From Bryobacterales bacterium (lineage in GTDB: Bacteria; Acidobacteriota; Terriglobia; Bryobacterales; Bryobacteraceae): a stretch of DNA of 45,743 nt. The DNA lies in assembly GCA_947467395.1 (NCBI GenBank), contig CANIIC010000013.1:1-45743 (forward strand). The letters are read 5' to 3'. Below, piece after piece: positions 27,686 to 35,854 of this stretch (position 1 is its first letter; each line of letters begins with the position of its first letter). The notes beneath the pieces are model-generated. The model was not told where the DNA came from. It saw only the letters and a program-made list of their open reading frames with translations, and searched no databases. The translations under genes were made by a program, and so were the position numbers.

Positions 27686-28507
27686 ATGATTGTGGAAATC
27701 GAAGGCGTTCCGTTGCATCTCGCGCATCCTGATGAGTTGTCGGTGCGTTGGGTGGGCCAAGAAGAAGTCATGCGGCAGTTGTTGGCTGCATGGCTGGTGG
27801 TGGATCCGCAAGATCTGCCCATGAATCCGCGATTATTGGGTAAGCCCGGCGTGGGGAAGACCACGCTGGCGTATGCGGCAGCGCAGCGCTTGGAGCGCGA
27901 GGTATACATCCTCCAAGCCACAGTCGATACGAGGCCCGAAGACCTGTTGATCACGCCCGTGATCGAAGGCTCCTCACACTTGCGGTACGTAGCTTCGCCC
28001 CTGGTGACGGCAATGCTGCGCGGTGGGATTGTGATTCTCGACGAAGGCAACCGGATGAGTGAGAAGAGCTGGGCCAGTTTGGCTCCGCTGCTCGACAACC
28101 GCCGCTATGTGGAATCGATCGTCGCGGGCATCAAGATTAAGGCCCATCCGTTGTTCCGGCTGGTCGCGACGATGAACGATGACGCCAGCACCTTTGATCT
28201 GCCGGAGTACATCCACTCGCGCTTGCAGCCGCAGATCCTGATCGATTTCCCGGAGCGCCAGGAAGAATTCGCGATCCTCAAGGAGAATCTACCGTTCGCC
28301 GACGATCACATCCTGAATTACGTCACGGAATTTCTACAGCAGGCGCACGCCGCCGAAGAGCGGTATTCAGCTCGCGACGGAATCAATATTGCGAGGTTTG
28401 CGATGAAACTGGCGCACGATGGCGCGTTGCTGGATCAGGCATTGATGCGCACGGCGATCGTGCAGACGCTGGGCGAAGAGGCTCTGCGGTATGTCGGACG
28501 TCTCTGA
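27686..28507 (+). CDS. MoxR-like AAA+ ATPase
   Basis: 273 residues, a single AAA+ domain. Walker A is G52-K-P-G-V-G-K-T59, Walker B is IVILDE (115-120), sensor 1 N164 lies in VATMNDD, and the arginine region is YIHSRLQPQILIDFPERQEE. This is closest to MoxR/AAA_5 (CbbQ, dynein-type) ATPases, which remodel partner proteins, usually a VWA-domain protein. Here no VWA gene follows; instead the next gene, overlapping by 17 bases in another frame, encodes a 608-residue protein of unknown kind. The pair is therefore likely a functional unit. Confidence 0.87.
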   Translation: MIVEIEGVPLHLAHPDELSVRWVGQEEVMRQLLAAWLVVDPQDLPMNPRLLGKPGVGKTTLAYAAAQRLEREVYILQATVDTRPEDLLITPVIEGSSHLRYVASPLVTAMLRGGIVILDEGNRMSEKSWASLAPLLDNRRYVESIVAGIKIKAHPLFRLVATMNDDASTFDLPEYIHSRLQPQILIDFPERQEEFAILKENLPFADDHILNYVTEFLQQAHAAEERYSARDGINIARFAMKLAHDGALLDQALMRTAIVQTLGEEALRYVGRL

Positions 28508-30317
28508 GATCCAGGTAGGCAGTCTTGAGCGCGGCCGGTGTCGCTACTTCCCGGTAGTGCCCGGACGTGTTGAGTTCGCGATTGCACTGAGGCGTTTGTT
28601 GCTGGAGCAACGCCCGGCCGTCGTGGCCGTTGAACTCCCGGAGTTCCTGTCGGACGCGTATCGCAAGGCGGTCGCGAGACTGCCGGAAATGTCGGTGATC
28701 CTTTATACGGCCGACGATGAGGACCGGGCTGTCTACATCCCAGTAGAGCCTGCGGACCCCTTTACGGAGGCTCTGCGAACGGCGGATGAGATCGGCGCGG
28801 AAATTCTGTTTCTGGAACCCGATACCCAGGAGCGGCCGCATCTTCACGACGCGTTCCCAGACACATATGCGGTGCAGCGCATCGGGCTCGATCGCTACAT
28901 TGAGGCGTATCGCGTCTACCCGCAGTCCCGCACCGATGAGATCCAGTCGCACGCGGCGGCCATGGCGTGGAAGCTGCAGGGTGCCGATCCGGAAGCTAGG
29001 GTGGTGGTGGTGGTGTCGCTCAACCTGCTCGATCCCTTACTGGATGCGATGGAGATGCCGCAGGAAGCCCCCGAGCGTCGGCGCTCGGCCGTCCCGCTCG
29101 ACGTGCAGTTGGTGAATCCGCATCCGGAGAGCCTGACCGAGATCACCATCGAGTATCCGTATTTGCAGGAACGCTACGAGTTCTTCCGTCTGGAATTGTC
29201 CGGTGAGGAAAAGCTCGACCGGCCACGCGTGCAGTTTGAGTTGTTGCGCGAGGCCGAGGTGAAATACAAAGAGTCGACGGGCGACGTGCTGGCGCACTGG
29301 CATCGTCGGGCGATCGCCCGTTACACCCGGAATCTAGCGCACGTGAGCGGTGATCTGGTCGCCGGAGCCTACGATCTGGCCTTGGGGGCGAGGTCGATTG
29401 TCGATGACAACTACGGCTGGGAAGTGTGGCAGATGGCGAACCGTTATTTGGCGCAGTCGGAACATTCCAGCCTGGAGACCGTGCGACTCAGTGCGGGCGA
29501 GATCTGGCTGAACACCAAGCGCCTGCGCATCCGTCGCCGTCTGCCGCGCGCCAAACAACGCCGGATGCCCACCGGGCTGAAGCCGCGCAAGAAAGAGAAA
29601 TTCGCAGGCGAGTGGGCGCAGCAGACCTCGGGCGAGGCGATCTGTTCGTATCCTCCCGAAGATCTGGTCATCGAAGAGTACGGGCGCTTTTTGAAGAAAA
29701 AGGCCAAGGCGCTGCTGTCCGAAGAACGTGTGCGCGTGGAGCCCTTCACGACGTCGATCCTCGATGGCGTGGACATTCGAGAAACGATTCGGAACTGGCA
29801 CCAGAAGAAGATCTACGTCCGTCAGGCGGATCGCTTGGCTGGTGAAGTCGGCAGCGTCGTGGTGATTTTCGATGAAGACGAGGAGAATCGCTGCGACTAC
29901 CTGACAACGTGGCTGGGCGAGCATCAGAACGAATCGGACATGGCGTTTTACTCTACGCATCCGTTCGAACACATCGTAGGGCCGGGCATCGGTCGAGCCG
30001 AATACGGCGGGTTCCTAATGACCTTGCCCGCGCGGCGCATGTTCGATGTTTGGTCTGACTCGGACTATGACTTTGCTGAGTCCAAGTCTGAGCGGCTGTT
30101 GATGGCCGCGCTCGACTATTCGGTGGAGCGGTTTGTCGTCTACGTCGCCGCTAAGCCGCCGCGTTCCATATTCCGCTCCATCGCGTCGCACTTGAATCGC
30201 AAGATTCTTTACGTGCCGATCGGGCAGCTGTCTCCCACCAAGATGAAACGGCTTCGCGTGGTCCACGTCCTGGATAATTACGATCGCCGGGCCGACGCCA
30301 AAGACTACATTTATTGA
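28491..30317 (+). CDS. Unassigned 608-residue partner of the MoxR-like ATPase
   Basis: 608 residues; ATG 28491 lies inside the end of the ATPase gene (17-base overlap). No signal peptide or membrane segment. Residues about 15-215 alternate strands and helices with RPAVVAVELPEFL and ARVVVVVSLNLLDPLL, which recalls the TraB/ChaN/EreA-like fold, though the His motifs of that group are not seen. A middle part (about 250-380) has a notable VDDNYGWEVWQMANRYL stretch and a very basic patch (KRLRIRRRLPRAKQRRM). The last about 190 residues form another mixed alpha/beta domain. Lacks a VWA MIDAS motif. Function unknown; it may be the client or adaptor of the ATPase. Confidence 0.8.
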   Translation: MSDVSEIQVGSLERGRCRYFPVVPGRVEFAIALRRLLLEQRPAVVAVELPEFLSDAYRKAVARLPEMSVILYTADDEDRAVYIPVEPADPFTEALRTADEIGAEILFLEPDTQERPHLHDAFPDTYAVQRIGLDRYIEAYRVYPQSRTDEIQSHAAAMAWKLQGADPEARVVVVVSLNLLDPLLDAMEMPQEAPERRRSAVPLDVQLVNPHPESLTEITIEYPYLQERYEFFRLELSGEEKLDRPRVQFELLREAEVKYKESTGDVLAHWHRRAIARYTRNLAHVSGDLVAGAYDLALGARSIVDDNYGWEVWQMANRYLAQSEHSSLETVRLSAGEIWLNTKRLRIRRRLPRAKQRRMPTGLKPRKKEKFAGEWAQQTSGEAICSYPPEDLVIEEYGRFLKKKAKALLSEERVRVEPFTTSILDGVDIRETIRNWHQKKIYVRQADRLAGEVGSVVVIFDEDEENRCDYLTTWLGEHQNESDMAFYSTHPFEHIVGPGIGRAEYGGFLMTLPARRMFDVWSDSDYDFAESKSERLLMAALDYSVERFVVYVAAKPPRSIFRSIASHLNRKILYVPIGQLSPTKMKRLRVVHVLDNYDRRADAKDYIY

Positions 30318-30342: not shown

Positions 30343-31560
30343 ATGCAACACGAAGTTGTCGAGACGCAGGGCCACCTGATCGATTCGCATCTGATGGAGC
30401 GGATCTTCGATACAGTGGTCGAATATCGCGGGAAGTTTGAAGTCGAAGAGTTTCGCATTGGCAAGACCAACGCGGATCCTTCGTATTTGCGGCTGAAGGT
30501 CGAAACCCCGTCGGCCAAGGCAATGGAGGATGTTCTTAGCAACCTCCTCGATCTGGGCTGTACTCCCGTTCATACAGGCGACGCCCAGTTGGAGACCGTC
30601 GAACGCGATAGCTGCGCTCCGGAGGACTTCTACTCCACTACCAATCACAAGACCTTGGTTCGGCACGGCGATCAGTGGCTGGAAGTCGAGAATCAGCGCA
30701 TGGACGGCATGCTGGTGGTCACTCCTGGTCATGCGGTCTGTCGCCGTTTGCGGGATCTCAAAAAGGGCGATCGCGTGGTGGTCGGTATGCGCGGGATTCG
30801 CGTGGTTCCCGAAGCGAAGGAGCGCGATCGCGAGTCGTTCGCCTTCATGAGCAACGAGATTTCGTCGGAGCGTCAACTGCGCACGGCCGTGCGACAAATC
30901 GTGTCATTGATGCGCGAGGCCAAGGCCGAGAATAAGAAGATCGTGGTGGTGGGCGGCCCCGTGATCATCCACACAGGCGGCGTCCCGGCGCTCGGTAAGC
31001 TGATCCAGACTGGTTGGGTGCAGGCACTGCTCGGCGGGAACGCGGTGGCGGTGCACGATATCGAAGCGTCGCTGCTGGGTACGTCGCTGGGTGTGCGCCT
31101 CACGGACGGGCGTCAGGAAGAACACGGCCATCGCAACCACATGCGCGCGATCAACGCGATCTACCGTGCAGGCGGCATCAAAGGCGCCGTGGAATCGGGC
31201 AAGCTGACCAGCGGCGTCATGTATGAGTGTGTGAAGGCCGGCGTGCCGTTTGTGCTGGCGGGCAGCCTTCGCGATGACGGGCCGCTGCCGGATACGATCA
31301 CCGATATGAACCGGGCGCAGGACGCCTACGCGGAACAACTGCGCGGGGCCGGTGTGGTGTTGTGTCTGGGATCGATGCTGCATTCGATCGCCACAGGCAA
31401 CATGCTGCCCAGTTGGGTGAAGATCGTGTGTGTGGACATCAACCCGGCCGTCGCGACCAAGGTCAGCGATCGCGGAACGGGCCAAGCTTTGGGCGTCGTG
31501 ACCGACGTGGGACAGTTCCTTCAGACGTTGGCCGCAGCCCTTGAGGAGAATTCGAAATGA
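30343..31560 (+). CDS. Archaeal-type ornithine cyclodeaminase (TIGR00300, LOR/SDH region)
   Basis: 405 residues. The N-terminal about 180 residues match the LOR/SDH bifunctional conserved region (EVVETQGHLIDSHLMERIFD, YSTTNHKTLVRH). The rest is a Rossmann-like part with VVVGGPVIIHTGG, ALLGGNAVAVHDIE and DINPAVATKVSDRG. This family includes the methanogen ornithine cyclodeaminase and the C-terminal half of cyanobacterial AgrE/ArgZ; it converts ornithine to proline with NAD+. It is unrelated to the common bacterial mu-crystallin-type enzyme. The arginine dihydrolase half of AgrE is absent. It overlaps queF by 4 bases. Confidence 0.82.
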   Translation: MQHEVVETQGHLIDSHLMERIFDTVVEYRGKFEVEEFRIGKTNADPSYLRLKVETPSAKAMEDVLSNLLDLGCTPVHTGDAQLETVERDSCAPEDFYSTTNHKTLVRHGDQWLEVENQRMDGMLVVTPGHAVCRRLRDLKKGDRVVVGMRGIRVVPEAKERDRESFAFMSNEISSERQLRTAVRQIVSLMREAKAENKKIVVVGGPVIIHTGGVPALGKLIQTGWVQALLGGNAVAVHDIEASLLGTSLGVRLTDGRQEEHGHRNHMRAINAIYRAGGIKGAVESGKLTSGVMYECVKAGVPFVLAGSLRDDGPLPDTITDMNRAQDAYAEQLRGAGVVLCLGSMLHSIATGNMLPSWVKIVCVDINPAVATKVSDRGTGQALGVVTDVGQFLQTLAAALEENSK

Positions 31561-31955
31561 AGCGTCAATATACGGATGAACACGCAGAAGCCGGCGTAAA
31601 CGCGCCGCTGCCGGAGATCGAAGTCTGGCCGAATCAGTACAACACTGGTTACGAGATTGAGATCGGGATGCCGGAGTTTACCTCGATTTGCCCCAAGACC
31701 GGACTTCCCGATATGGGCACGCTGACGCTGACCTATGTGCCCGACAAGTTCTGTCTGGAACTGAAATCGCTCAAGATGTACACGATCGAATACCGCAACC
31801 TGGGCATCTTCCAGGAGAATATCGTGAATCGCATGTTGGCTGACATCGTGAAGGCCTGTAAGCCGCTCGAAGCGACGCTCGAGGGCGACTTCGTGCCTCG
31901 CGGTGGCATCTCGACACGCGTCGTCGCGCACTATAAGCGAGGCAAGAAGAAGTGA
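31557..31955 (+). CDS. queF: NADPH-dependent 7-cyano-7-deazaguanine reductase QueF
   Basis: 132 residues, the short (type I) form. The nucleophile C45 lies in EFTSICPKTGLPD, with D52 as the proton donor; the QueF signature ELKSLKMY follows. It reduces preQ0 to preQ1 for queuosine in tRNA. The other queuosine genes are not here. Its start overlaps the previous stop by 4 bases, and the next gene's GTG overlaps its stop, so three genes are tightly coupled. The C-terminal Lys-rich tail (KRGKKK) is normal. Confidence 0.96.
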   Translation: MKRQYTDEHAEAGVNAPLPEIEVWPNQYNTGYEIEIGMPEFTSICPKTGLPDMGTLTLTYVPDKFCLELKSLKMYTIEYRNLGIFQENIVNRMLADIVKACKPLEATLEGDFVPRGGISTRVVAHYKRGKKK

Positions 31956-33325
31956 CCGAACAGGAACTCACGGCGACTATCCGCGAAGTTCGCGAGCGGG
32001 CCCGGGCGAATGCGCCGCAGGGTGCGTTGGGTCCGGAAGGCGTCTACGCAGCAGATCTGATGCCGCTGGTGCATGCTCGCGATGCAGCGGAGGCCAAAGT
32101 TGCCGCTATCGGCACCGTGAATCCGCGGCCGCCGGGGTTCAAGAATTCGATCGCGCAGGGCTTCAAGAAGTTGATCGCGCGTGCGCTCGACTGGCATGTG
32201 CGGGAGCAGGTGGAATTCAACCGGGCCGCGATGGAATGCGTACAGGCGTCTCTGGACGCGATGACGCAAATGACCCGAAGCATGGCCCAGCTGGCCGCGC
32301 GCCACGAGGAACTGCGTCAGGAATTGGATGCGGCCAAACTCACCAAAGAGAGTCTGGCTGAGTTTGAAGACCGGAATCTCCGCAATGAAGTTCGCATCCT
32401 TCGGACGATCTCTGAACTTCAGGCTGCGTACGCGCACCGCCTGACCGTTTCCGAACAATCCCACAAGGATCTGATGCGGGCGCAGCATCAGGATTACTTG
32501 AGTGCCCTGGATCGCAGCACTTTGGATGTGCAAAAGCGTCTATGGGATGACTTGGCCAAAGCCCGTGTGGAGTTCGAGCGCTTGATTCACAATGAGCTGC
32601 GCATCCTGCGTCAGCGGCCACTGCAGCAGGTGACGCTGGCGGCTCCGGCAGTCGCGAGTATGGCTGCGCATCCGGTGCAGGCCGAGATCCCGATCGATTG
32701 GCAAGCGTTCGCGACGCGGTTCCGTGGAAGCGAAGAGCGCATCCGCCAGCAGCAGGGCCGTTACATCGAACGCTTCAAAGGAACCTCGGGTGAGATTCTC
32801 GATATCGGCTGTGGTCGTGGCGAGTTTCTCGAAGCCGCGCGTGAGGCCGGACTGTTGGCGCGGGGCATCGATCTCAGCCAGGAATCGGTGGATGAATGTC
32901 GCGCGAAGGGGCTCGATGCCGAATGTGATGACTTGTTCGCGTATCTGGATGCGCAGACCGATGCGTCGCTTGCGGGGCTCTACTGCTCGCAAGTGGTTGA
33001 ACATCTGACCCCTGCCGCCGTCGCTCGGTTCGCGGAGTTGCTGGGGCGCAAGATGCGCTCCGGGGCACTGGTCGCGATCGAGACGCCGAACCCGGAATGT
33101 CTTGCGATCTTCGCGACGCACTTCTATATTGACCCGACGCACACGCGCCCCGTGCCGTCGATCCTGCTGCGTTACTACCTGGAGGAAGCAGGCTTCGCGG
33201 GGATCGAAGTGGAGTATCTGGAGCCGGCAGTCGATTCGATGCCGGAGCTGAAGGAGTTGCCGACGTCCGTTCGCGAGAAGTTCTTCGGTGGCCTCGATTA
33301 CTCAATCTTTGGGCGCAAGCTGTAG
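31952..33325 (+). CDS. Class I methyltransferase with long N-terminal coiled coil
   Basis: 457 residues from GTG 31952. Residues about 65-215 are strongly helical and charged with heptad character, predicted coiled coil. The C-terminal half has SAM-binding motif I (L-D284-I-G-C-G-R-G-E-F), acidic G-I-D-L-S, and later VEHLTPAAV and ETPNPECL. Similar architecture (methyltransferase plus coiled coil) is used by polysaccharide chain-end methyltransferases such as WbdD, but here the coil precedes the enzyme and no kinase domain is seen. The gene faces a glycosyltransferase gene, overlapping its end by 24 bases, so a glycan substrate is plausible. Confidence 0.82.
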   Translation: MTEQELTATIREVRERARANAPQGALGPEGVYAADLMPLVHARDAAEAKVAAIGTVNPRPPGFKNSIAQGFKKLIARALDWHVREQVEFNRAAMECVQASLDAMTQMTRSMAQLAARHEELRQELDAAKLTKESLAEFEDRNLRNEVRILRTISELQAAYAHRLTVSEQSHKDLMRAQHQDYLSALDRSTLDVQKRLWDDLAKARVEFERLIHNELRILRQRPLQQVTLAAPAVASMAAHPVQAEIPIDWQAFATRFRGSEERIRQQQGRYIERFKGTSGEILDIGCGRGEFLEAAREAGLLARGIDLSQESVDECRAKGLDAECDDLFAYLDAQTDASLAGLYCSQVVEHLTPAAVARFAELLGRKMRSGALVAIETPNPECLAIFATHFYIDPTHTRPVPSILLRYYLEEAGFAGIEVEYLEPAVDSMPELKELPTSVREKFFGGLDYSIFGRKL

Positions 33326-35854
33326 CAGCTCGCGATAGAGTTGCTTTTGAACGGTGGCCATTGCTGGCCACCCATAGACACGCTCGGCGCTTGCACGCGC
33401 GTGTGTTTCCAAGGCCTGACGTTCTGCGGGTGACTGCAGCAGCCGGTTGATGAACTCTGCCAGTTGCTGTGAATCATCTGAGACCAATACATCTGCGCCG
33501 CGTTCTAACTCCAGCCCGTGAATTCCAGCTTCGGTAGATACGATCGCCTTGCCCATGGCCATCGCTTCCACGATCTTCACGTTCGTGCCTGCCGATGCTA
33601 CCAGCGGCGCGATCACCACCGTAGCGTTTCGATAGGCGGGCCGGACGTCGGAAACAAAGCCCTCGACCTGGACCCCGGGCTGCTGCAAGTCCCAGAATCG
33701 CGTGTGGTTCTGCCCGGCGATGACGTGAAGCGTCACGTCGTGCAACTGCGGGAAGACCTCTTTCAAGAAGAACTCCAGGGCCAGCACGTTGGGCTTGTGG
33801 GCGAAGGATCCGATGAACAGCAGGCGGCGCGGTTGGGGCGCGTCTGGTGAGGGCTGGAAGCGCACCAGATCGACTCCGTTGCCGATCGTGATCGCTTTGT
33901 CTCCTACGACGGCTCGGTCCTTCTCGGACATCGTGACAACCCGCGTCACGTTGCGCCATGCTTCCGTCTCAAACCCGAGCCATAGATCGTGCTGGCGGCG
34001 CGTCTCCCAATCGCTGGTTTCAGGCCGCGCGAGCATCTGCGCGTAGAGGTCGTAGGTGATGTCGTGTTCCACCAGGATCGTCGGCACGCGGCAATCCTTG
34101 GAGTAGGCGGCCATCTGCGTGAACTCCAGTTGCACGGTCTGCGGGCTCCACTTCGCGATGGATTGCTTGAGTGCCGCATGGAAGGTCGGTGTGTCGAATT
34201 CTTCCACCGTGTCGGGCCTGCCGCGCGAGACCACTGCATGCGAGCCCTTGCGATGAACTGTGACTACTTCGACGCACAGGTCCAGAAGCTCCCGCGGGAC
34301 CGGGCGTGGCTCTTCGACGAAGGCGACCAGGATCACCTCGAACTCGTCCACCGTCTCACGAATCAGGTTGTAGATGCGGACGGCGGCTCCGTGCGAGAGC
34401 GGGAAGGGAAGATACGGGCTGGCGATCAGGATGCGCGGCTTGTTCGATGCTCCGCGGCCCGGAAACACAGCCACTTGTCCATTGAGCAGATCAAGGAACG
34501 CACAGTCGCTCTTGATTACGGGCAGCGGTGCCATCTCCGCGGCCTCGGCCAATACTTCCGAGTTGCCGAGTGCCTTCAGTCGCAGCACCTGATGGTTCCA
34601 CATCGCCTCGAAGCGATTCGGGTCACTGATCGCACGCGCCAGGAAGCGCGTGTAGTTTACTTCGAGAGCCAAATTCAGTTCGTCCGACGTGAAGTATCGC
34701 GATGTGGTCGTGCGATGTTGATGCAGGACGCGAGCCCCGGCGCAGTACACGCTGGGCCAGTTACGCGACCAGCCGCGCACGCCCAGGTCCAGATCTTCTA
34801 CGTAAGCCGGCGTGTAGACTTCATCGAATCCGCCAAGCGCGGCGAGCTTCGCTCCGTCGTACAGCGAACAACCGCCGCTGCCATAGAGCACGTAGCTCTG
34901 ATCCTCGCCTTCCATGGGAATATCGCAGCGGAGGGGAAGGTCAGTCACTCCGGGTTCCGGATCCAGCACTGTCTTGCCGGTTTCTTCGCGACGCTGGCCT
35001 TCAGGCAGGAAGATCTGGGCAGAGGCACAAAACAGCTCCGGGACTTGGTCAAACGCCGCACGCAGAGCTTCGAGAAAGCCGGGCTCTACCTCCATGTCGT
35101 TATTGAGGGCGCAGATGTGAGAGTAACTGGCGCGCGCGATGCCCCGGTTCATAGCGACGGCGAACGACAACGGCTCCGGATTGAATTCGACGACAACGGT
35201 TGGGTACAACTGCCTGAGCCAGTCAGTGGTTCCGTCGGTCGATCCGTTATCGACGACGATCACCTCGTCGGCGGTGGCCAAACCCGGCAGGCACTTTGCC
35301 AGCAAGTCGCCTCCATCGCGCGACGGGATCACCACGGAGATGCCTGGCCGTTTCGGTTGCGCGGGCTTCGGTAGCTGCGCGATCGGTCGAGTCGCCACTA
35401 ATTCCCGACCTCGCGCCAATGCACGGCGATAGAGGAGCGACAAGCGGAACTGTTCGGGGTTCAAGAGCCGGACAGCCGTATTCAGCTTCGCTTTCAGCCC
35501 CTGTTTCTTCTGTCGCGCGCGATGCTGTGCCACGGTGGTCGCGCCGGTTTCATCGAACCAGTCCACATCCTCGCCCAAGACTGTCTCACCAATGGAACGC
35601 AAAGCGTCGTACGGGGCACTGGGGTCCAGCAAGATCGCCCCGACCAGAATCTCGCGATCTCCCAAACGGGAGCCGAGGAGTTCCAGGTTTTCCTGTTCCG
35701 ACCGTTTGATGTGGAACGGGATCCACTCTCCGTGTGTGGGCGCAAACTCCGAGAACACGACCAGCGGCAAGTCCTGCGGAAGGCGCGCGATCGTATCCTC
35801 AATCAGCCTCGGAGAGCCTGAGCCAAACAGAATACGGATGGGCGGCTGCTTCAA
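33302..35854 (-). CDS. Two-domain glycosyltransferase, GT2 fused to GT4
   Basis: 850 residues. Residues 1-165 form an N-terminal region I cannot assign. A GT2 domain follows with ISVVIPSRD (172-180), VDNGSTDGT (201-209) and the acidic NND (251-253, the usual DxD place). From about 475 a GT4/GT-B domain begins with ILIASPYLPFP, later FIGSFAHKPN (about 681) and EAMAMGKAIVST (about 766). Two transferase activities in one chain suggest assembly of two sugars in sequence on a surface polymer or protein. Its start overlaps the toroid gene by 4 bases, so they are co-expressed. Confidence 0.9.
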   Translation of the reverse strand: MKQPPIRILFGSGSPRLIEDTIARLPQDLPLVVFSEFAPTHGEWIPFHIKRSEQENLELLGSRLGDREILVGAILLDPSAPYDALRSIGETVLGEDVDWFDETGATTVAQHRARQKKQGLKAKLNTAVRLLNPEQFRLSLLYRRALARGRELVATRPIAQLPKPAQPKRPGISVVIPSRDGGDLLAKCLPGLATADEVIVVDNGSTDGTTDWLRQLYPTVVVEFNPEPLSFAVAMNRGIARASYSHICALNNDMEVEPGFLEALRAAFDQVPELFCASAQIFLPEGQRREETGKTVLDPEPGVTDLPLRCDIPMEGEDQSYVLYGSGGCSLYDGAKLAALGGFDEVYTPAYVEDLDLGVRGWSRNWPSVYCAGARVLHQHRTTTSRYFTSDELNLALEVNYTRFLARAISDPNRFEAMWNHQVLRLKALGNSEVLAEAAEMAPLPVIKSDCAFLDLLNGQVAVFPGRGASNKPRILIASPYLPFPLSHGAAVRIYNLIRETVDEFEVILVAFVEEPRPVPRELLDLCVEVVTVHRKGSHAVVSRGRPDTVEEFDTPTFHAALKQSIAKWSPQTVQLEFTQMAAYSKDCRVPTILVEHDITYDLYAQMLARPETSDWETRRQHDLWLGFETEAWRNVTRVVTMSEKDRAVVGDKAITIGNGVDLVRFQPSPDAPQPRRLLFIGSFAHKPNVLALEFFLKEVFPQLHDVTLHVIAGQNHTRFWDLQQPGVQVEGFVSDVRPAYRNATVVIAPLVASAGTNVKIVEAMAMGKAIVSTEAGIHGLELERGADVLVSDDSQQLAEFINRLLQSPAERQALETHARASAERVYGWPAMATVQKQLYRELLQLAPKD

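Follow-up and report, generated by a model that had tools for sequence, protein, structure and literature searches.

MoxR ATPases are generally explained through VWA partners, and a locus in a Bryobacterales genome raises the question of which protein takes that part when the gene following a MoxR-type ATPase encodes no detectable VWA domain. The locus lies in a stretch of 45,743 nucleotides, referred to as the window, which is part of contig C13 of genome G000 (4.07 Mb, 278 contigs). It consists of a gene for a MoxR-type AAA+ ATPase and a gene for a partner protein of 608 residues, here called P608. The pairing of the two is not chance, as they are kept together in other genomes. The reading favoured here, and judged somewhat better than even, is that they form an obligate two-protein AAA+ machine, in which a MoxR subfamily ATPase is joined by a partner with a DUF5682/YehM-type N-terminal domain and a C-terminal domain in the place of the VWA adaptor. 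The two open reading frames (ORFs), their 17-base overlap and the change of frame described in an initial annotation of the window were all confirmed in the sequence:

27686–28507, + strand: MoxR-type AAA+ ATPase gene (273 amino acids), with AAA_5 and AAA_3 Pfam matches above cut-off
28491–30317, + strand: gene for the partner protein P608 (608 amino acids), from the open reading frame and its relatives
28491–28507, + strand: gene overlap of 17 bases in different frames, with the ATG of P608 inside the codons of the RYV tail of the ATPase

The pairing can be followed across relatives. Among the best 80 loci of 209 P608 relatives found in the named genome collection, the ATPase lies upstream of P608 at 78, and at the remaining two (L096 and L097) the contig leaves no room for it, starting 188 and 2 bases ahead of the match. 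The initial annotation would have been refuted by homologues not kept beside the ATPase, and this check came out in its favour. Of 61 near relatives, 41 have P608 and 40 have the ATPase (E ≤ 1e-40), with both in 38 and neither in 18. An identical set of 15 genomes in a 297-genome sample of the phylum carries P608 (E ≤ 0.001) and the ATPase (E ≤ 1e-60), and neither was detected in the remaining genomes at these thresholds. The chance of this 15/15 co-occurrence is 1.5e-25 when genomes are treated as independent and kinship is ignored; the 15 bear 10 different family labels and are not fully independent. One of the genomes searched (G278) has two copies of each gene, and in another (G297) about 2 kb with opposite-strand ORFs lies between them. 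Furthermore, both genes are present yet apart in G123 and G326 of the phylum sample and in the near relatives G029 and G030, which argues that the bond between ATPase and P608 exceeds neighbourhood.

At the junction itself, a GAGG precedes the ATG of P608, its end 10 bases from the start codon. An overlap of exactly 17 bases recurs in 46 of the 78 relatives with measurable junctions and an overlap of any length in 74, the exact lengths depending on start codons that were chosen by script near that of the window; one locus (L071) has a gap of 230 bases instead. In each of the two genes, the third codon position holds most of the differences between the window and three relatives (87, 34 and 301 differences at positions 1, 2 and 3 for P608 against L031), and the ATPase and P608 are therefore real genes. 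The record of L031 is titled Bordetella parapertussis and that of L087 Acidimicrobiia, and their genes are 63–92% identical to Acidobacteriota-type ones; these titles of metagenome-assembled genomes look wrong.

Outside Acidobacteriota, the distribution rests on one plasmid of Neochlamydia sp. S13, which bears the pair with 5 bases between the genes, annotated as an AAA family ATPase and a hypothetical protein. A profile built from 20 P608 members (alignment A5) also located P608 on two IMG/VR contigs, L193 and L194. The window P608 itself had no match among IMG/VR viral contigs, and phage records searched with the Neochlamydia P608 gave none. On L193 (368–4583), a phage-type integrase immediately follows the pair and a gene with a weak, below cut-off likeness to a portal protein is close by, perhaps marking the edge of a provirus; on L194, P608 comes early in the contig, next to genes resembling, by eye, phage structural genes.

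To which kind of MoxR ATPase does the first gene belong? Its Pfam matches are AAA_5 (72.6 bits, cut-off 22, E 4.3e-20) and AAA_3 (37.9 bits, cut-off 27, E 2e-9), and the nearest solved chains are those of midasin (8.7e-20), NorQ (2.1e-9) and CbbQ (3.3e-7). The following motif was placed by position:

27839–27862, + strand: Walker A motif GKPGVGKT, residues 52–59 of the ATPase

ILDEGNR, from residue 117, is the Walker B motif and ATMND, at residue 161, is sensor 1; HSRLQP follows at residue 177. Residues 52–59, E120 and N164 are invariant in a 15-row alignment (A2). The 12 other P608-partner ATPases compared, including that of Neochlamydia, are 61–80% identical to the window protein, and the nine distant ones together with the Neochlamydia one are 61–72% identical, whereas YehL-type, CoxD-type and RavA proteins and one further MoxR protein of the same genome reach a BLAST E of 7e-5 or weaker (best YehL-type 6.9e-5, E. 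coli YehL 0.064, CoxD-type 9.4e-5). Judged by these scores, the ATPase is a distinct MoxR-type subfamily.

The partner is less readily placed. Neither Pfam, NCBIfam, PADLOC, PHROGs nor PDB sequences gave anything for P608 at E ≤ 1, and the initial annotation had called it an unknown protein with a possible TraB/ChaN-like front. Three features concern this part:

28539–29402, + strand: P608 N-terminal domain, residues ~17–304, homologous to YehM ~2–325 (DUF5682) by profile-profile comparison
28551–28562, + strand: first GxxH-like motif site, residues 21–24, reading PVVP with the histidine lost (alignments A5 and A3)
29016–29027, + strand: second GxxH motif site, residues 176–179, reading SLNL with the histidine lost (alignments A5 and A3)

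When 20 P608 proteins were compared with seven DUF5682 proteins using hhalign, residues ~17–304 of P608 aligned with Prob 98 and E 1.4e-13 (1.8e-13 on repeat). Controls, either reversed or column-shuffled, gave E 0.08–0.55, the five column shuffles among them 0.08–0.38, and the 13 distant P608 members alone gave E 1.1e-14. Residues 330–608 did not align with DUF5682 (E 0.67), and the homology is hence not full-length. Single-profile searches with DUF5682 (PF18934, cut-off 26 bits) scored L128 at 26.2, L116 at 19.7, L194 at 13.3 and Neochlamydia at 13.2, with no match for the window P608 or L193. At E ≤ 5 the profile matched three of the 20 A5 members, and it also matched P608 relatives in G119 and G205 among 149 genomes. 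The TraB_PrgY_gumN profile stayed under cut-off for L194 (E 0.028) and met two of the 20 A5 members (best 0.25); no TraB family protein was found in 21 genomes, and ChaN and EreA were covered within general Pfam scans only. The TraB/ChaN-like front was consequently borne out as DUF5682 homology, the direct TraB match lying under cut-off, and the N-terminal half of P608 is, as judged from profiles, a diverged DUF5682/YehM domain, making P608 a distant relative of E. coli YehM. Of the description as unknown, therefore, the C-terminal domain keeps its part, being without a family match, and the N-terminal half does not, as it belongs to a family known beside MoxR in yehL-yehM-yehP-yehQ.

The TIKI/TraB/ChaN/EreA superfamily is marked by GxxH motifs, the first of which reads PxxH in P608. 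Both histidines are kept in all 13 distant Acidobacteriota members of A5, in the Neochlamydia P608 and in L194, and both are absent from all 72 rows of alignment A3, from L193 and from the G044 protein. Because both are lost, the N-terminal domain in the clade of the window is more likely a binding, or pseudo-enzyme, domain.

DUF5682 genes were also found near YehL-type ATPases in five of six regions (L186, L187, L188, L190 and L191; not L189). Together with the P608 pair, this means that DUF5682-type domains have at least two modes of combination with MoxR ATPases: with YehL, in some cases along with a VWA protein, and in the pair. In one of these regions (L188 6786–10460, G111:C116), a YehP-type VWA protein and a DUF5682/YehM-type region are encoded by one ORF of 1224 residues, so that two products of the yeh operon are naturally fused. 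Given this kinship, the pair could be a YehL-YehM-YehP-YehQ system stripped of its neighbours, as a DUF5682-type N-terminal domain adjoins a MoxR ATPase and one distant member (L128) just passes the family cut-off. This is highly improbable, however, since the ATPase is as far from YehL-type as from CoxD-type proteins, the C-terminal half of P608 does not align with DUF5682, and of the 95 ORFs that neighbour the pair at 14 distant loci, two carry a VWA domain (among the first 25 of 109 families). A BLAST search with YehQ found no relative in L168–L191, a weak test, as none appeared at DUF5682 loci either.

The initial annotation had further claimed that the partner carries no VWA domain, and VWA profiles indeed match neither P608 nor any of 20 members. 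In the window, no VWA was found in P608 or the two downstream genes, genes further upstream not having been Pfam-scanned, and none of the three VWA_CoxE matches in the genome is on contig C13. Two other MoxR genes above cut-off in this genome do have a VWA_CoxE match close by, about 4.4 kb away on C66 and about 0.7 kb away on C36, the latter under the family cut-off. A third partner gene was not apparent either: once ORFs antisense to P608 are set aside, the most widespread family reaches 17 of the 80 loci, where it lies on either strand. The power of this survey is limited, since even the ATPase was picked up as an ORF in only 47 of the 80 loci, many of which are short, and a conserved third partner could be missed. 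Directly downstream of the pair (30343–31955) are two overlapping genes, one of ornithine cyclodeaminase type (ArgZ-like) and one QueF-like, and further on, at 33302–35854 on the - strand, an 850-residue ORF resembles, by eye, two glycosyltransferase modules joined in one protein.

What, then, stands in the place of the VWA adaptor? The remainder of P608 divides as follows:

29400–29429, + strand: VDDNYGWEVW, residues 304–313 (sequence and alignment A3)
29439–29639, + strand: poorly conserved, partly basic region, residues 317–383 (alignment and model confidence)
29640–30314, + strand: P608 C-terminal domain, residues 384–608, the most conserved part and without a known family (conservation)
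30297–30314, + strand: extreme C-terminus, residues 603–608, AKDYIY (alignment A3)

Both the VDDNYGWEVW stretch and the basic patch that the initial annotation had pointed out are present. D305, N307 and W313 are invariant across the 72 rows of A3 and not among distant relatives, and residues 317–383 have no invariant column in 20 rows and 27% identity between clades. Beyond them, 20 diverse rows show 39 invariant columns in residues 384–608 versus 13 in residues 17–235, and the clade of the window is 54% identical to distant members in the former region versus 30% in the latter. This pattern, along with the models, suggests that residues 384–608 form a separate C-terminal domain, in line with the distinct domain proposed at first. 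The AlphaFold model of full-length P608 has a mean predicted local distance difference test (pLDDT) of 74, and a model of residues 366–608 is of moderate quality (pLDDT 74, predicted template modelling score 0.68), with three strands, a helix, a strand, a helix and a strand in that order. Fold searches with the full and C-terminal models against the PDB, and with the C-terminal model against BFVD, returned nothing at E ≤ 0.001. No PDB sequence matched the C-terminal profile at E ≤ 10, and seven matched the full P608 profile, none meaningfully (best E 0.11). In NCBIfam, 20 members met four families at E ≤ 1, with one or two members each; the best, a precorrin methyltransferase (8.6e-4, one member), was taken as chance.

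One way to read this domain is as a cryptic VWA with a broken metal-ion-dependent adhesion site; the locus would then hold a MoxR-VWA pair of the usual kind, with DUF5682 as a fusion. When the C-terminal alignment was compared with YehP alone, the LDGVDIRETIRNW...KIYVR segment was placed just before the YehP VWA domain, and the DUF5682-YehP fusion in G111 shows that such a joining occurs in nature. Yet the YehP match has Prob 2.4 and E 0.02, and it was not upheld with more VWA proteins, falling to Prob 0.2 and E 0.32 against five YehP/CoxE-type proteins. VWA topology is an alternation of strands and helices, unlike the moderate C-terminal model, which predicts three consecutive strands with a short helical turn between, and no VWA entry is among the best 50 of 368 fold matches. 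Together with the silent VWA profiles, this leaves a cryptic VWA doubtful.

The main alternative is that the C-terminal domain is enzymatic, perhaps an RNase H-like nuclease switched by the ATPase, with the pair acting as an McrBC-like machine or a conflict (defence) system. Many of the 39 invariant positions are polar or charged (C385, D425, D428, E431, E477, E481, D483, E534, D542 and H592), and the strand and helix order of the model would suit such an enzyme. RNase H-like entries (SPARTA, SPARSA and SPARDA complexes, RNase H, DDE transposases, RuvC and terminases) recur among the fold matches, though at insignificant scores that offer a hint only. The plasmid copy, the copy beside an integrase and the scattered distribution in the phylum are also consistent with an enzyme or defence role. 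Still, no fold match reaches E ≤ 0.001 and P608 has no PADLOC or PHROG match at E ≤ 1. P608 is carried by 36 of 37 genomes with family label f1, unlike what is expected of defence genes, and across the 95 neighbour ORFs each PADLOC family has at most two matches (25 of 60 families covered). An enzyme of this kind is therefore unlikely, if slightly less so than a cryptic VWA.

The obligate ATPase-P608 machine remains the preferred reading, and its working can be sketched from NorQ-NorD. By that analogy we infer that the ATPase would form a hexameric ring, that P608 would dock on it through its tail and conserved C-terminal domain, and that ATP hydrolysis would turn or pull these docked parts. 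The pair may in this way be a remodelling system, as the initial annotation had suggested. The DUF5682-type N-terminal domain may then be the end that binds a client or ligand, its presumed catalytic histidines gone in the clade of the window. In NorQ-NorD, NorD depends on its last residues to stay bound to the NorQ ring, and a finger enters the pore (PMC13036017); the C-terminal domain and tail of P608 are by analogy the likely docking part. The same paper describes McrC, which lacks a VWA domain, as the partner of the similar ring ATPase McrB in a finger-in-pore assembly as in NorQD (PMC13036017), so a VWA-less partner would have precedent. It is also possible, though short of probable, that the pair represents a new class of MoxR machine, in which a P608 C-terminal domain of new fold replaces the VWA adaptor, its 39 invariant residues probably forming a catalytic or ring-docking site, and DUF5682 has turned pseudo-enzyme in the clade of the window.

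Several observations weigh against the favoured machine. The 61-genome search found P608 without the ATPase in G016, G017 and G039 (partial matches) and the ATPase without P608 in G009 (partial match) and G053 (stop codon); the ATPase match of G326 contains one TGA, and the ATPase thresholds of 1e-40 and 1e-60 could miss short fragments. The DUF5682 homology depends on distant P608 members: the clade of the window alone matches modestly (Prob 61, E 8e-5 for A3; Prob 50, E 1.7e-4 for A1), and the family profile matched P608 in one (G036) of the 41 P608-bearing near relatives. Residues 331 to about 520, the part that matters most, are poorly modelled by AlphaFold, with block pLDDT of 32–66 from 331 and most blocks below 70. 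The last residue is W in 66 of the 72 rows of A3, and the window P608 ends in Y. As a separate observation, the subfamily ATPase of G053 (C90:24660–25466) has an in-frame stop in a genome with no P608, which looks like the joint loss of the two in progress.

MoxR ATPases with partners, and DUF5682 beside MoxR, were known already. The open-licence literature yielded no paper on the ATPase-P608 pair and none giving DUF5682/YehM a function; the ATPase subfamily, the VWA-less two-gene form and the P608 C-terminal domain are not described in the literature searched. An obligate conserved pair with no detectable VWA would test which parts of the MoxR mechanism need this domain. The pair is also a first handle on DUF5682/YehM, which is present in E. 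coli, and the 39 invariant C-terminal residues make mutational tests straightforward.

Compared with known systems, the pair resembles E. coli yehL-yehM-yehP-yehQ (MoxR, DUF5682, VWA and SWIM) in that the neighbour of its MoxR gene encodes a DUF5682-type N-terminal domain, but differs in its MoxR subfamily, in the C-terminal half of the partner and in having no kept VWA gene. In the VMAP ternary conflict systems, too, another protein is associated with a MoxR ATPase, and according to Kaur et al. (2020) a vWA protein is a core component (PMC7159879), whereas no vWA gene was found beside the pair, the VMAP profile not having been searched. With McrB-McrC, the pair would share a ring ATPase and a VWA-less partner (PMC13036017), an analogy only that implies no sequence relation. 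The partners in NorQ-NorD and CbbQ-CbbO have a VWA adaptor, unlike P608 with no detectable VWA domain, but these systems and the pair are alike in joining a small MoxR ATPase to a larger partner whose C-terminus is conserved.

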